Shown here piece after piece: positions 32,879 through 46,674 of a stretch of 60,402 bases of DNA (within the stretch, counting starts at the first letter, position 1; every line of letters starts with the position of its first letter). The notes beneath the pieces are model-generated. The model saw only the letters and a list, made by a program, of their open reading frames with translations, did not search any database and was not told the DNA's origin. The translations under genes were made by a program, and so were the position numbers. Location: NCBI GenBank assembly GCA_015487495.1, contig WFPP01000122.1, forward strand, positions 1 through 60,402, read 5' to 3'. Source of the stretch: Thiomicrorhabdus sp. GTDB taxonomy: Bacteria; Pseudomonadota; Gammaproteobacteria; Thiomicrospirales; Thiomicrospiraceae.

Positions 32879-35209
32879 GTGACTACAGAAAATACGACGG
32901 GTCAGCAAGACCCACATGCACAGCGTGAAGCTGAAAAATATGATAATCCCATTCCAAGCAGAGAATTTATTCTTGAGGCACTAGAGAAAGCTCAGAAGCC
33001 CTTGCGGTTGTATCAGGTGGCAAAGGCTCTTGAGGTTTCGGAAGAAGACGAAGAGCGTTATGAAGCATTGTCTCGCCGATTAAAAGCGATGGTTCGTGAT
33101 GGGCAGCTGATTCGTAACCGTCGTGGTGCATTTGGTTTATTACGCAAGATGGATTTAATAAAAGGTCGAGTATTGGGGCATCCTGATGGTTATGGCTTTT
33201 TGGTTCCAGAAGAAGGCGGAAAAGATCTTTTCCTTTCTGAAAAAGAGATGCATAAAGTCTTGCATGGCGATATTGTGATTGCTTCTGTTATTGGCGAAGA
33301 TCGTCGAGGTCGTCAAGAAGGGACAATTGTTGAGGTTGTTAAACATGGTACAAAGCAGGTGCTGGGGCGTTTGGCATGTGAAAATGGTTTGTCTTGGGTA
33401 CGTCCAAATAATAACCGTTTAACACAAGATGTTTTTATTCCTAAAGATGGTTTGCTGGAAGCCACTGAAGAGCAGGTGGTTTTGGTTGAAATTTTAAGTC
33501 AGCCAACGGCGCGTTCAGGCCCAATAGGTCGAATTATTGAGGTTGTAGGTGACTATATGGCACCTGGAATGGAAATCGATTCGGCCATTCATGCTTATGG
33601 TATTCCAAATGAATGGTCAGAAGCGTTATTAAAAGAGCTGGATGCGATTCCAGATGAGGTAACGGAAGCCGATCTGGAAGGACGTAAGGATCTTAGAAGC
33701 ATGCAACTGGTAACCATTGATGGCGCGGATACCAAAGACTTTGATGATGCTGTTTTTGCAAAACGCCGTAAAAATGGTTGGCGTTTAGTGGTTGCGATTG
33801 CAGATGTATCGCATTATGTGAAGCCTGGAACTGAATTGGATAAAGAGGCCTTGAATCGTGGAAATTCGGTGTATTTTCCCCAACGAGTTGTGCCAATGTT
33901 GCCTTCAAAATTATCGGATGGCTTGTGCTCTTTAAATCCCCATGTTGATCGTTTGTGTATGGTTGCTGACTTAGCTATTGATGAAGATGGGCGTTTGGAA
34001 CGCAGTCAATATTATCAGGCTGTAATGAACTCGAAAGCGCGTTTAACGTATGATCAAGTGCATGATATTTTAACCAATCCAGAGAGTGAGTTTAGGGAGA
34101 GGTTCTCTGAACAAGTTCCTCATTTGGAAGACTTGAATGCGCTGTATAAAGTGTTGCAAAAAGCACGTGAAGCTCGAGGTGCATTAGAATTTAATACCAC
34201 TGAAACGCGTATTGTTTTTGATGATGAACGAAAAATTAAAGAGATTGTGCCTGTTTACCGTAATGAGGCACACAAGCTGATTGAAGAATGCATGTTAATG
34301 GCCAATGTGGCAACAGCAAGGTATTTAAAATGGCATAAAATTCCAATTGTTTATCGTGTGCATGAAAAGCCGACGGAAGAACGCCTTAAAAACCTAAGAA
34401 CCTTTTTAAACGATTTTAGTTTAACCTTGGAGGGAGGAGATGAACCCACTGCTCATGATTATGCGGCAGTAATGGAAAAAATTCAGGGGAAACCTTATGA
34501 GCATTTAGTGCAAACGGTGTTGTTACGCAGTATGAATCAAGCGGTGTATCAGCCTGAAAATAAAGGCCATTTTGGTTTAAATTACGAGCATTACACACAT
34601 TTTACTTCACCTATTCGTCGTTACCCTGATTTATTAGTGCATCGTGCGATTCAGCATGCCTGGAAAAAGGTTGGAGCAGAAGGATTTGAATATACAGAAG
34701 CACAAATGCAGGAGTTGGGTCAGCATTGCTCGGATACAGAAAGGCGTGCAGATGAGGCAACGCGTGATGCCGTTACCTTTTTGAAATGTGAGTTTTTATC
34801 ACATCGATTAGGAGAAGAGTATGACGCAGTGGTGACGGCAGCGACGAACTTTGGTTTATTTGTTGAAATTGACCCGCTGTATGTTGAAGGTCTGGTGCAT
34901 ATTACTGAACTGGGTGAAGATTACTTTCATTATGATAATGCTCGCCATTGTTTAAAGGGGGAGCGTACAGGGAAAGTGTATCGTTTAGGGGATCGTATTC
35001 GTGTGCAGGTGGCTCAAGTTAATTTAGATGATCGGAAAGTGGACTTGCGCTTTATTTCAGGTGGTTCGAGTGATGAGCCTGTTTCAGAAGAGACAGAAGC
35101 ATCACCGGAAGAAGAGACGCAAGATTCCCGTTCCCACAAAAGACCACGACGTAAACGCTATTATCGTAAAGGTAAAAAGTCTCCCGTTAAAAGTCAGGAT
35201 TTGTTGTGA
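32879..35209 (+). CDS. rnr: Ribonuclease R
   Basis: Processive 3'-5' exoribonuclease that degrades structured RNA. 776 aa. Order: N-terminal HTH (about 25-85), cold-shock domains, the RNB catalytic domain with the Asp cluster in VTIDGADTKDFDDAVFA near residue 285, an S1 domain (EYDAVVTAATNFGLFVEIDPLYVEGLVHI) and a basic tail rich in R/K. The GTG start at 32879 has a weak ribosome-binding site. The stop overlaps the rlmB start by 4 bp (GTGA), the conserved rnr-rlmB pair. Confidence 0.95.
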   Translation: MTTENTTGQQDPHAQREAEKYDNPIPSREFILEALEKAQKPLRLYQVAKALEVSEEDEERYEALSRRLKAMVRDGQLIRNRRGAFGLLRKMDLIKGRVLGHPDGYGFLVPEEGGKDLFLSEKEMHKVLHGDIVIASVIGEDRRGRQEGTIVEVVKHGTKQVLGRLACENGLSWVRPNNNRLTQDVFIPKDGLLEATEEQVVLVEILSQPTARSGPIGRIIEVVGDYMAPGMEIDSAIHAYGIPNEWSEALLKELDAIPDEVTEADLEGRKDLRSMQLVTIDGADTKDFDDAVFAKRRKNGWRLVVAIADVSHYVKPGTELDKEALNRGNSVYFPQRVVPMLPSKLSDGLCSLNPHVDRLCMVADLAIDEDGRLERSQYYQAVMNSKARLTYDQVHDILTNPESEFRERFSEQVPHLEDLNALYKVLQKAREARGALEFNTTETRIVFDDERKIKEIVPVYRNEAHKLIEECMLMANVATARYLKWHKIPIVYRVHEKPTEERLKNLRTFLNDFSLTLEGGDEPTAHDYAAVMEKIQGKPYEHLVQTVLLRSMNQAVYQPENKGHFGLNYEHYTHFTSPIRRYPDLLVHRAIQHAWKKVGAEGFEYTEAQMQELGQHCSDTERRADEATRDAVTFLKCEFLSHRLGEEYDAVVTAATNFGLFVEIDPLYVEGLVHITELGEDYFHYDNARHCLKGERTGKVYRLGDRIRVQVAQVNLDDRKVDLRFISGGSSDEPVSEETEASPEEETQDSRSHKRPRRKRYYRKGKKSPVKSQDLL

Positions 35210-35958
35210 AGCAAGAAACCATTTATGGATTGCATGCGATTGAAAAATTTATTAAGCAAACGCCGCATTTGGTTTATCAACTCTCTTTTGTAAAGGGGCG
35301 TTTAAATAATCGACAGCAAGCATTGTATGATTCGGCAAAAGCATTAGGTTTATCGCCTAACTGTGTTGCTAAGTCGGATTTTAATAAAGTTGATGGTAAT
35401 CATCAGGGTGTGATGGCGCTTGTGGCTAAACAACCTGATTTAAAAGAGTCTGATTTATTAAGTCTGATGAATCAGGCTTCAAACCCATTATTTATTTTTT
35501 TGGATGAGGTTCAGGACCCCCATAATTTAGGGGCTATTTTGCGAACTGCCGATGCGGTAGGTGCGGATGCTGTAATTATTCCCAAGCATAATTCATCGGG
35601 AATGAATGCAACGGTTCGTAAAGTGGCTTCTGGTGCTGCGGATAATGTAAAATTAATCGTGGTATCTAACTTAACGCGTACTTTAAAAGAGATGCAACAA
35701 GCTGGCATGTGGATGGTGGGGCTGGACGGTGAGACTGAGCAAACCATTTATGATCAAGATTTTACGGGTTCAACTGGAATTGTTATGGGGGCAGAAGGAC
35801 GAGGCTTAAGACGTTTAACAAGAGAAGCCTGTGATTATTTAGCTGCCATCCCGATGTTAGGGGTTGTCGAAAGTTTAAATGTATCGGTTGCAACGGGTAT
35901 TACGGTTTATGAGGCCTATCGCCAGCGCCAATTATTTGCTCAATCTTCAGATAGGTAA
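35206..35958 (+). CDS. rlmB: 23S rRNA (guanosine-2'-O-)-methyltransferase RlmB
   Basis: SpoU/TrmH-family methylase of G2251 in 23S rRNA. 250 aa. N-terminal substrate-binding domain (IYGLHAIEKFIKQTPHLVYQL), then the knotted SAM domain: FLDEVQDPHNLGAILRTADAVGADAVII (motif 1), GIVMGAEGRGLRRL (motif 2) and PMLGVVESLNVSVATGITVYEA (motif 3). The GTG start overlaps the rnr stop. Its 3' end overlaps the 3' end of the opposite-strand PfkB-Rieske gene by 19 bp. Confidence 0.95.
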   Translation: MKQETIYGLHAIEKFIKQTPHLVYQLSFVKGRLNNRQQALYDSAKALGLSPNCVAKSDFNKVDGNHQGVMALVAKQPDLKESDLLSLMNQASNPLFIFLDEVQDPHNLGAILRTADAVGADAVIIPKHNSSGMNATVRKVASGAADNVKLIVVSNLTRTLKEMQQAGMWMVGLDGETEQTIYDQDFTGSTGIVMGAEGRGLRRLTREACDYLAAIPMLGVVESLNVSVATGITVYEAYRQRQLFAQSSDR

Positions 35959-37145
35959 ATATCTCCGTTTTTATCAATCAAAATGTCAACGGGAGTAAGG
36001 GAATCATTCCAGCATGGCCCCTCGATACAGACCCCATCATCAATCTGAAAGAAAGCATCGTGTACGGAACATTTGAGTGTTTTCTCAAAAGGGTTTACCT
36101 CTATTTTGTAGGCTTCATCCAGTGGTACGTTTTGATGAGGACAATTATTTTCATAGGCTTTGACTCCATTGATATGCTTGATCAGGATGATTGGGTAGAG
36201 CTTTTTTTCAGATTGAACAACCAGTGTTTTCGCATTGCTTAATTGTGCAATATTGGCAATGGGCGTGTCATGTTCGGTTATTTTAAGTAAGTTATCCAAC
36301 CCTATTTGTGTGCACTTTTTGCCTGCTAAATTATTTGCATGTTGTACTGCATTGTCCAAGGTTTCTCCATGTATTAAGTGGTGTATTAAAGAGGCATTAA
36401 ACGTATCGCCAGCACCAAGTGTGTCAATGGCGTTAACGGGAGTGGCATGCAGATGTTGAATGGTTTGGTTGATGTCGGCAAACCATACCCCCTGTTCTCC
36501 CCAAGTGCAGACTATTCTGGCGTTTGGTGCGACTTGTTGAATGTTCGAAAGTAGAGCATGTCCATCCTTAAATCCTTTTTGAGTGGCATAATCGTGTGAA
36601 AAAATAAGTAGGTTCGCCTGGTTAAATAGGGCTTCAATGCCTTTTCTTGGTTTTTCAATTTCAAGAGAAATAGGCTGATTGGTTAGAAATGTTTTTGCAA
36701 TATTAAGCATGCCTGTTAGATTTTCGACATTTCGCCCTTCAAAATGCAACCAGTCAAATGTTTCGATTGCAATTTTAGCAAAGTGTTCAAAACTCACTTC
36801 AGGTAAATCACGATAATGAACAATGGTTCTTTGCCCGTTTTGTTTGTTAAGGATGATAAAAGAGTTGGGGGTTTTGCCTTGAATGAATCTCTGTATATGA
36901 GTGGTGTCGATATTTCGGTTTTTTAGTCCGAGTAGAAGTTGCTTTGCTTCGTTATCGGCCGCAACGGTTGTGCAGATGCTACTTTGATGGCCGAGTTGGT
37001 TTAAGACGTATAGAGTATTGTTGATGTTACCACCAGTTGAAAATAGGCGAGTTTGTGCTCTTAGTTCTTCATTTTCCTTGGGGTAGTGTAAAACGGTAAA
37101 AATGGTATCTAATACGCTATTGCCAATGCCAAGTATCTTTGCCAT
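35940..37145 (-). CDS. PfkB-family carbohydrate kinase fused to a C-terminal Rieske [2Fe-2S] domain
   Basis: A 401-aa two-domain protein. Residues 1-295 are a ribokinase/PfkB kinase: FSTGGNINNTLYVLNQLG holds the GG signature and AIDTLGAGDTFNASLIHHL the DTxGAGD anion-hole/catalytic Asp motif. Residues about 310-401 form a NirD-like Rieske domain with ligands C335-x-H337 (NNCPHQNVPLDE) and C359-x2-H362 (LKCSVHDAFFQIDDG), then CIEGPCWNDSLTPVDI. One continuous frame covers both, without stop or ribosome-binding site at the junction, so this is a true fusion rather than neighbouring genes. Kinase substrate unknown; the ketohexokinase/fructokinase branch is plausible. The Rieske part suggests redox control or electron transfer (inference). 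Confidence 0.88.
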   Translation of the reverse strand: MAKILGIGNSVLDTIFTVLHYPKENEELRAQTRLFSTGGNINNTLYVLNQLGHQSSICTTVAADNEAKQLLLGLKNRNIDTTHIQRFIQGKTPNSFIILNKQNGQRTIVHYRDLPEVSFEHFAKIAIETFDWLHFEGRNVENLTGMLNIAKTFLTNQPISLEIEKPRKGIEALFNQANLLIFSHDYATQKGFKDGHALLSNIQQVAPNARIVCTWGEQGVWFADINQTIQHLHATPVNAIDTLGAGDTFNASLIHHLIHGETLDNAVQHANNLAGKKCTQIGLDNLLKITEHDTPIANIAQLSNAKTLVVQSEKKLYPIILIKHINGVKAYENNCPHQNVPLDEAYKIEVNPFEKTLKCSVHDAFFQIDDGVCIEGPCWNDSLTPVDILIDKNGDIYLSED

Positions 37146-37721: not shown

Positions 37722-38462
37722 ATGGCTGAAATTAAGTCTGCGTTTAATGCAAGTTGCCGAAACTGTGGTTTGCAAAAAGTATGTTTTCCTACAGGGCTTG
37801 TGAAATCAGACATTGATCGTCTGGATCAGGTTGTTGATCGAAAACCTCCTCTTAAAAAAAATCAATATCTATTTAAATCAGGTGAAGCATTCACCTCTTT
37901 GTTTGCGATTCGTGCTGGCGTGATTAAGCTGTACTCTTTTTCTGAAATGGGTGAAGAGATTATTCATGGTTTTTATTTGCCAGGAGATGTGTTGGGGGTG
38001 GATGCACTGGCATCCAAAGAACATAAGTTAAATGCGGTTGCCATTGATAATGTAAGTGTGTGCGCTTTGCCTTTTGATCAACTAACTGATCTTTCTTTAC
38101 AAATTCCCAGTTTGAATCAACAAATTATGATGGTGATGAGCAAAGAGGTTAATGAGGGACGATCTCATTCTGAAATGTTGATTAAACGAAATGCCGATCA
38201 ACGAGTGGCACAATTTATTTGGAGTATGGCAGAACGTTATCGTGTTCGAGGGTATGTGTGTGATGAATTTCGTTTGAATATTTTACACAGGGATGTTGCC
38301 GTGCATTTAGGATTAACCCCTGAAACCGTTTCGCGTATTTTGGCTAAATTGCATTCTGAAAATATTGTGACGTGGAAAAAGAAAGAGGTCAAAATCTACA
38401 ATGAAGAAGCATTACGTATTGCAGCAGGTGGTGTATGTGAAGAGGTTGAAGGGTTTGCTTAA
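37722..38462 (+). CDS. fnr: Fumarate/nitrate reduction regulator FNR
   Basis: Oxygen-sensing CRP/FNR-family regulator. 246 aa. Cysteines C12-x2-C15-x5-C21 (SCRNCGLQKVC) plus C114 (NVSVCALPF) match the four ligands of the E. coli FNR [4Fe-4S] cluster. A cNMP-like beta-roll follows, then the dimerisation helix and a C-terminal HTH with recognition helix LTPETVSRILAKLH, whose E-x-x-S-R is the FNR-type specificity, so a TTGAT-N4-ATCAA target is expected. No clear FNR box was seen in its own promoter. Confidence 0.95.
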   Translation: MAEIKSAFNASCRNCGLQKVCFPTGLVKSDIDRLDQVVDRKPPLKKNQYLFKSGEAFTSLFAIRAGVIKLYSFSEMGEEIIHGFYLPGDVLGVDALASKEHKLNAVAIDNVSVCALPFDQLTDLSLQIPSLNQQIMMVMSKEVNEGRSHSEMLIKRNADQRVAQFIWSMAERYRVRGYVCDEFRLNILHRDVAVHLGLTPETVSRILAKLHSENIVTWKKKEVKIYNEEALRIAAGGVCEEVEGFA

Positions 38463-45987: not shown

Positions 45988-46674
45988 TTAGGCGCTGAAT
46001 GTCTCTGTTGAAGAGGTTTTTTTTTGACGTCTATGGATAGAGGCGAATAACATCAATGTACCCAATCCAAATAACAGGATAGAAGACGGTTCTGGAACTG
46101 GCGAAACTTTTGTGAGCGCTTGTGTTCTGGAAAGGGTGTCATAACTAAATAGTTGTAGCTCGGAAATGGCGTATAAATGATCTCCTCCTGATGCGGACAG
46201 TCTAAGGTAGCGGGCATTAACAGCATCAAAGTCCAAGTTGGCAACGTATTCACTGTTGAGTGCATCACTGCTCATAATATCCATTCCCCATCTTGTTTCG
46301 CCATCGTTTGGATTGATGGTAAAAAGATTGGACCAGTTGAGGTTATCAATAGAGTAGTCTACTTGATAAATGTCATTATCATTTACTTGTAAAAGAATGT
46401 CTTGAATTAAAAAAATTTCTTTTAGGTCAACAGTAATATTTAGGTAGTCAGATTGCCACCAAATACTATTACTCATCATTTTTTGATTAAAGATGTCCTC
46501 TTCTTCACCAAGCATGATGCCATCCGTTAGGCTATTTGATGTGATTGAGAATAATTGATTCGTAGAAATATTATTTTCTGATAGTGTAATGAGGTGTGGT
46601 TTTTCTGATGCTCCTGCTTGTACCCCTGTAAAAGTTAAAAAACTGATAAGTAAAGGTGAGAATAGCTTTTTCAT
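45988..46674 (-). CDS. PEP-CTERM sorting domain protein with discoidin-like domain
   Basis: A 228-aa exported protein. Signal peptide at residues 1-22 (ends VQAGAS). The middle has the shape of an F5/8 type C (discoidin) carbohydrate-binding domain: WWQSDYLNITVDLKEIFLIQDILLQV, YQVDYSIDNLNWSNLF, ARYLRLSASGGDHLYAISELQLFSY. The C-terminus is a textbook PEP-CTERM tag: VPEPSSILLFGLGTLMLFA followed by basic SIHRRQKK, recognised by exosortase. No exosortase gene is in the window, so it must lie elsewhere. Likely a surface or exopolysaccharide-associated protein. Confidence 0.85.
   Translation of the reverse strand: MKKLFSPLLISFLTFTGVQAGASEKPHLITLSENNISTNQLFSITSNSLTDGIMLGEEEDIFNQKMMSNSIWWQSDYLNITVDLKEIFLIQDILLQVNDNDIYQVDYSIDNLNWSNLFTINPNDGETRWGMDIMSSDALNSEYVANLDFDAVNARYLRLSASGGDHLYAISELQLFSYDTLSRTQALTKVSPVPEPSSILLFGLGTLMLFASIHRRQKKTSSTETFSA

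Follow-up and report, generated by a model that had tools for sequence, protein, structure and literature searches.

A ketohexokinase-like kinase joined to a Rieske domain throughout the order of Thiomicrorhabdus

The fusion gene and its conservation

The question raised by this locus is whether one gene that reads as a sugar kinase followed by a Rieske iron-sulfur domain encodes a genuine protein and, if so, what the two domains would do together. The stretch of DNA analysed, here called the window, comprised 60,402 nucleotides of a Thiomicrorhabdus sp. contig (WFPP01000122.1), and an earlier reading made from the sequence alone had placed in it an uninterrupted frame of 401 amino acids at positions 35940-37145, leaving its strand unsaid. 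The frame was found on the minus strand, with 401 codons plus a stop and an ATG start codon at 37145, and the plus strand across 35940..37145 was full of stops. Moreover, all the motifs on which that sequence-only reading relied were present, namely GG (residues 38-39), IDTLGAGDTF (240-249), C335-P-H337 and C359-x2-H362. A search of the window's own genome with the fusion protein returned one match, which was the fusion gene itself.

To establish how widely the fusion occurs, the family of the window was considered, which in the genome collection is identical to its order and comprises 62 genomes of seven genera. Both domains were joined in all 62 genomes, with the frame intact in 60, and inner stops were found in three copies. 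In the first of these (G021, locus L111, lying on two contigs) the break fell towards the end of the Rieske domain, beyond the four ligands; in the second (G035, locus L117) it was broken in the kinase part; and in the third (G030) the stop sits at the natural end of the fusion gene. Furthermore, 13 of the 14 named loci in the collection, a set that overlaps with the 62 genomes, carried the fusion, including those of Thiomicrorhabdus, Thiomicrospira and Hydrogenovibrio, which are sulfur-oxidising autotrophs. The fourteenth, from Marinomonas (L044), matched the Rieske part alone.

Separate kinase and Rieske genes do occur outside the order, and the presence in other orders of separate neighbours lying in the same frame (G418, G063 and G197) would lend some weight to the view that a sequencing, assembly or frameshift artefact had joined two genes. 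Against it, the fusion was carried by 62 assemblies from seven genera and its frame was broken inside only two of them (G021 and G035), so that the chance of an artefact is negligible. A frameshift at the junction, or a recent error uniting genes that relatives keep apart, is what would have refuted the claim of the sequence-only reading; with the fusion present in 62/62 genomes, both were rejected. The uninterrupted frame holding PfkB and Rieske domains is real, and the fusion of a ketohexokinase-type kinase to a Rieske domain is conserved across the order.

The surroundings of the gene were also largely maintained. On its 5′ side lies a divergent gene (37722..38462, plus strand), the product of which we take from its sequence to be an Fnr/Crp-type regulator, the listed start codons of the two genes being separated by 576 bases and their gene order being conserved. 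On its other side, a convergent gene (35206..35958, plus strand), presumably for an rlmB-like rRNA methyltransferase, overlaps the fusion gene by 19 bases at its 3′ end. Near the fusion, the rnr cluster was represented at 54 of the 62 loci of the family, the rlmB cluster at 55 and the fnr cluster at 48, the fetched flanks being of variable length. Thus, the adjacency to fnr that had been pointed out earlier holds, as a divergent pair with a gene of the same cluster at 48/62 loci, but the redox link drawn from it found nothing beyond this conserved gene order. In particular, a scan for the FNR-box consensus in the 300-base upstream region of the kinase domain, which covered 60 family loci out of 62, detected no signal above shuffles (mean best match of 7.35 out of 10 vs. 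7.31 in base shuffles), this region amounting in the window to about half of the 576-base gap. Control of the fusion gene by Fnr was rejected for this lack of enrichment. Elsewhere in the window, a protein encoded on the minus strand (45988-46674) ends in a VPEPSS-hydrophobic-RRQKK tail, which we take to be like PEP-CTERM sorting signals.

The kinase and Rieske domains

The kinase domain occupies residues 1-288 (36282..37145, minus strand). It matched the Pfam PfkB family (PF00294) over residues 2-285 with an E-value of 7.7e-33 and 114.5 bits, above the curated cut-off of 25.8, and contained the GG and GAGD motifs, which places it in the PfkB/ribokinase superfamily. The ten best matches among solved structures were all ketohexokinases (E 2e-48 to 1e-45, residues 3-286), and the next sugar kinase structure followed at 3.6e-16, the domain being closer to ketohexokinase than to other PfkB kinases. 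Moreover, the fusion protein did not reach the equivalog cut-offs for ribokinase (TIGR02152, 88.8 vs. 299.65 bits) or 1-phosphofructokinase (TIGR03828, 31.4 vs. 292 bits). Judged by its sequence, the kinase is ketohexokinase-like, a more specific assignment than the PfkB kinase named earlier.

In human ketohexokinase, fructose is contacted by Asp15, Gly41, Asn42, Asn45 and Asp258, and by Glu139 through water (PMC2651755). When these contacts were mapped by the structure-match alignment, their counterparts in the fusion were D13, G39, N40, N43, D247 and E136, respectively. All six were invariant in every family row covering them (61 or 62 of 62), the N-terminal residues being counted in 61 rows because the broken copy G035 is without that part, and the catalytic D247 was kept in all 62. 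At the position aligned with ketohexokinase residue 27, the window has Asn, and the 62 family rows showed 49 Asp, 12 Asn and one gap. Given the ketohexokinase structure matches and the retained fructose-contact residues, the activity expected of the fusion is that of an ATP-dependent ketose kinase forming the 1-phosphate.

The Rieske domain follows at residues 297-401 (35943..36257, minus strand), in the same frame as PfkB. The Pfam Rieske family (PF00355) was matched over residues 296-379 (E 1.8e-8, 34.6 bits, cut-off 20.3), and this match together with two cysteine and two histidine ligands assigns the domain to that family. The four ligands, C335, H337, C359 and H362, were kept in 62/62 family rows. 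In addition, two further conserved cysteines, C373 and C378, lie in a GxCxxGPC motif; both were invariant across a 14-row alignment, and C373 was present in 61 of the 62 family rows, the other having a gap. The domain had been called a complete NirD-like Rieske, and complete it is, with the PF00355 match and all its ligands, but the likeness to NirD was not borne out, as no NirD model appeared among the three Pfam matches or the 25 listed of 32 NCBIfam matches (E up to 1).

A total of 90 Rieske domains were compared, all of which kept CxH, CxxH and GxCxxGxC, the rows having been chosen by similarity, which favours conservation, with two truncated rows dropped and 14 of the 62 family rows used. 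Because all of them keep these three motifs, the 90 domains look like one subfamily. From what is known of the family, a ferredoxin-type [2Fe-2S] cluster would be expected in the Rieske domain of the fusion.

The two domains are joined by a variable linker of low identity (36258..36281, minus strand, about residues 289-296). The mean identity to the window was 62% for the kinase and 63% for the Rieske domain (60 rows each), compared to 32% for linker residues 286-296 (61 rows), a pattern suggestive of a loose connection between two functional domains. An AlphaFold model built from 14 sequences had a mean pLDDT of 62.7, too low for judging how the domains are arranged or how far the cluster lies from the active site.

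Kinase-Rieske pairing and carbon fixation in the class

The pairing was followed in a class sample of 369 genomes, from which 95 further loci with ketohexokinase-like kinases were fetched and classified. Five of these were fused, 31 had an adjoining Rieske gene on the same strand (30 downstream of the kinase and one upstream), and 59 were without a Rieske gene in the fetched stretch, which at four of the 59 reached less than 500 bases downstream. For 40 of those 59 loci, the genome gave no Rieske match at E 1e-5, in a search that was not exhaustive and missed one known pair (G219). The kinase can therefore work without a Rieske domain, as the 59 loci and the 40 genomes indicate. Furthermore, 76 of the 134 Rieske genomes in the class sample were not among its 99 kinase genomes. 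The separate occurrence of each fits with the kinase and the Rieske domain being modules useful apart. Clearly, the fused protein is one form of a pair of kinase and Rieske genes that recurs. Within family f153, a single gene slot contained the kinase and the Rieske gene in one genome (G418) and the Rieske gene alone in two others (G213 and G323); this slot is flanked on one side by a large protein from the cluster with cNMP-binding, rhodanese and FGE-sulfatase domains and on the other by what is presumably an ABC transporter.

The loci without a neighbouring Rieske gene (59/95) would be in line with a Rieske domain that has lost its electron-carrying function and serves just to stabilise or localise the kinase. 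Such a role is improbable, however, as the four ligands were invariant in 62/62 family rows and C373 in 61/62, and the domain is as conserved as the kinase.

Regarding the origin of the fusion, a quick tree was built from 115 kinase domains, of which 20 came from the 62 family rows and 95 from the class loci. It required three changes of the fused label, one of them forced by well-supported branches. A tree with all fused rows together was no worse (log-likelihood 9.9 higher, AU p 0.60), so a claim of repeated fusion was dropped, and the fused form may go back to a single old event or to several later ones. In a phylum-labelled sample of 249 genomes, drawn differently from the class sample, the kinase was found at E 1e-20 in three genomes, including the window's own, all of the same class. 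At another locus (L194:1303-2646, genome G493), a distant PfkB kinase with 27% identity was followed by one stop and then by a Rieske gene in the same frame, which suggests that such pairs may also occur outside the group of closely related kinases.

Clustering of the neighbouring genes gave no constant third gene within the fetched sequence (mostly 2-5 kb), whether beside the pair or beside a Rieske gene standing alone. The neighbours were varied, and a fixed third gene partner was rejected. The cNMP-binding/rhodanese/FGE-sulfatase protein cluster was frequent but not universal, being present near 17 of the 95 kinase loci of the class sample (an adjacent Rieske gene occurred at 12 of the 17), and it was likewise found at eight loci where a Rieske gene has no kinase next to it. 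The two examples scanned (L073:332-5161 and L086:1-3945) were very large proteins combining cNMP-binding, rhodanese and C-terminal FGE-sulfatase parts. Moreover, a small protein of ~100 amino acids with zinc-ribbon-like cysteines (L089:5337-5645 and similar) was found close to the kinase at 27 loci, none of which had a Rieske neighbour; the one example scanned, that of L089, had no Pfam match.

Within the class sample, the kinase tracks carbon fixation. RuBisCO was detected at E 1e-100 or better in 87 of the 99 kinase genomes compared to 82 of the 270 others, a main figure that leaves out matches between 1e-20 and 1e-76 (13 genomes); when every RuBisCO match was counted, the numbers were 91/99 and 91/270. 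The 99 kinase genomes excluded two with inner stop codons (G136 and G375), one with an E-value of 7e-34 (G121) and all weaker PfkB matches, and adding the three named genomes resulted in 90/102 vs. 79/267. These counts treat related genomes as independent, and kinship inflates the contrast, an effect reduced but not removed at the family level, where RuBisCO appeared in 50 of 53 kinase families and 33 of 129 others (the total of 182 being the highest family code seen). The window's own family was represented in the class sample by four genomes, all four with RuBisCO. Furthermore, hexulose-6-phosphate synthase was found over cut-off in 3 of the 12 kinase genomes without RuBisCO at E 1e-100 or better, all from one family, corresponding to the RuMP route.

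The same sample lent itself to another explanation, in which the kinase is a fructokinase of sucrose turnover, acting on fructose from osmolyte sucrose, and the Rieske tail is incidental. Sucrose-phosphate synthase was found over cut-off in 58 of the 99 kinase genomes and 31 of the 270 others, and the association persisted with an odds ratio of 3.1 within RuBisCO genomes, as well as outside them (7/12 vs. 5/188). However, this explanation, favoured by the class sample, failed within the window's family: all 62 genomes carry the fusion and only 27 of them the synthase, which was also not found in the window's own genome (94% complete). In addition, a separate PfkB match lay 1.8-2.4 kb from the synthase (the distance between the matched stretches) in 26 of the 26 synthase genomes searched for both, the PfkB search covering 60 of the 62 family genomes. 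A role of the fusion as sucrose fructokinase is accordingly unlikely. The synthase with a PfkB kinase ~2 kb away has a patchy distribution (27/62 family genomes), as exemplified by G032:C1:1733139-1737011. Other matches of the PfkB search, with frames of ~480 residues, are probably HldE-type proteins.

Proposed function and relation to known systems

The best explanation, to which we would give a probability of roughly 0.4, is that the fusion acts as a ketose kinase and that a ferredoxin-type [2Fe-2S] module within the same protein tunes it to the redox state. In such a protein, the N-terminal ketohexokinase-type kinase would transfer phosphate from ATP to O1 of a ketose sugar, and the C-terminal ferredoxin-type Rieske domain would hold the [2Fe-2S] cluster. 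The kinase would act in carbon-fixing bacteria (by RuBisCO or RuMP) on free intracellular ketose, which might arise, for example, through loss of phosphate from the sugar phosphates of the cycle. The cluster would then tune the kinase to the redox state in cis where the two are fused, or by contact where they are encoded by neighbouring genes. Redox gating is the least certain of these steps. As the fetched sequence showed no constant third gene next to the pair, the cluster may serve the kinase, most simply by redox tuning, and the same result for the Rieske genes leans towards the kinase itself as the Rieske partner in these organisms. In its strongest form, with a ketohexokinase switched by its own Rieske cluster, which would sense redox directly and match ketose phosphorylation to carbon fixation, the proposal is a tentative one. 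The occurrence of the kinase and of the Rieske protein apart from each other counts against the best explanation. So does the result for 1-phosphofructokinase, considered as the next step for the ketose 1-phosphate, which was found over cut-off in none of the 60 family genomes searched.

Alternatively, the Rieske domain might carry electrons to a distinct reductase or oxygenase of the same pathway, the fusion merely tethering two steps. The CxH...CxxH spacing, the retention of CxH, CxxH and GxCxxGxC by all 90 compared domains and the existence of the same Rieske type without the kinase in 76/134 Rieske genomes, pointing to a role of its own, are in keeping with this possibility, while within the fetched sequence no constant oxygenase or reductase gene was found beside the pair or beside Rieske genes standing alone, although such a partner may be encoded elsewhere in the genome. 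Electron carriage is nearly as likely as redox tuning, given that Rieske domains of this type are also encoded elsewhere without the kinase, but both would be held with some doubt.

Both domains are of known kinds, and it is their combination that would be new. The open-access literature was searched for PfkB, ketohexokinase or sugar kinase together with Rieske, and no such fusion was evident from titles or the start of abstracts; likewise, searches for bacterial, methanotroph or chemolithoautotroph ketohexokinase and for sucrose or Thiomicrospira fructokinase brought up nothing evident on the fusion in those parts of the articles. To that extent, the statement of the sequence-only reading that no characterised enzyme has this layout agrees with the open-access literature, the only literature covered, and an entry for the kinase-Rieske architecture may exist in domain databases. 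No sugar kinase containing an iron-sulfur redox centre of its own thus emerged from the literature searched, and here one would be present in 62/62 genomes of an order. The order-wide fusion and the link to RuBisCO point to an unrecognised step in which carbon-fixing bacteria would handle free ketoses, perhaps under direct redox control.

Four known systems can be compared with the fusion. HldE is likewise a PfkB fusion, in which the kinase is joined to a nucleotidyltransferase, so that both proteins have a PfkB kinase with a second domain attached, but that of HldE is not a redox domain. FruK, the sucrose-operon fructokinase of halotolerant methanotrophs, is, like the fusion, a PfkB kinase of carbon-fixing or C1 bacteria, whereas in the window's family it is a different PfkB gene that lies 1.8-2.4 kb from sucrose-phosphate synthase (26/26). 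The ferredoxin-type Rieske proteins of PF00355, such as the phenylpropionate dioxygenase ferredoxin (PRK09965), share with the fusion the CxH...CxxH pattern and a domain of ~100 residues. In contrast to them, the Rieske domain of the window is fused behind a sugar kinase and carries GxCxxGxC, and it scored below the PRK09965 cut-off (17.8 vs. 113 bits). Finally, ketohexokinase (PDB 3nbv and 3b3l) resembles the kinase over the whole domain (E 2e-48), and its fructose-contact residues and GAGD catalytic Asp have conserved counterparts in the fusion. The animal ketohexokinase is an enzyme of medical interest, and the fusion is a bacterial relative of it that differs in carrying a C-terminal Rieske domain and that would act on a ketose.
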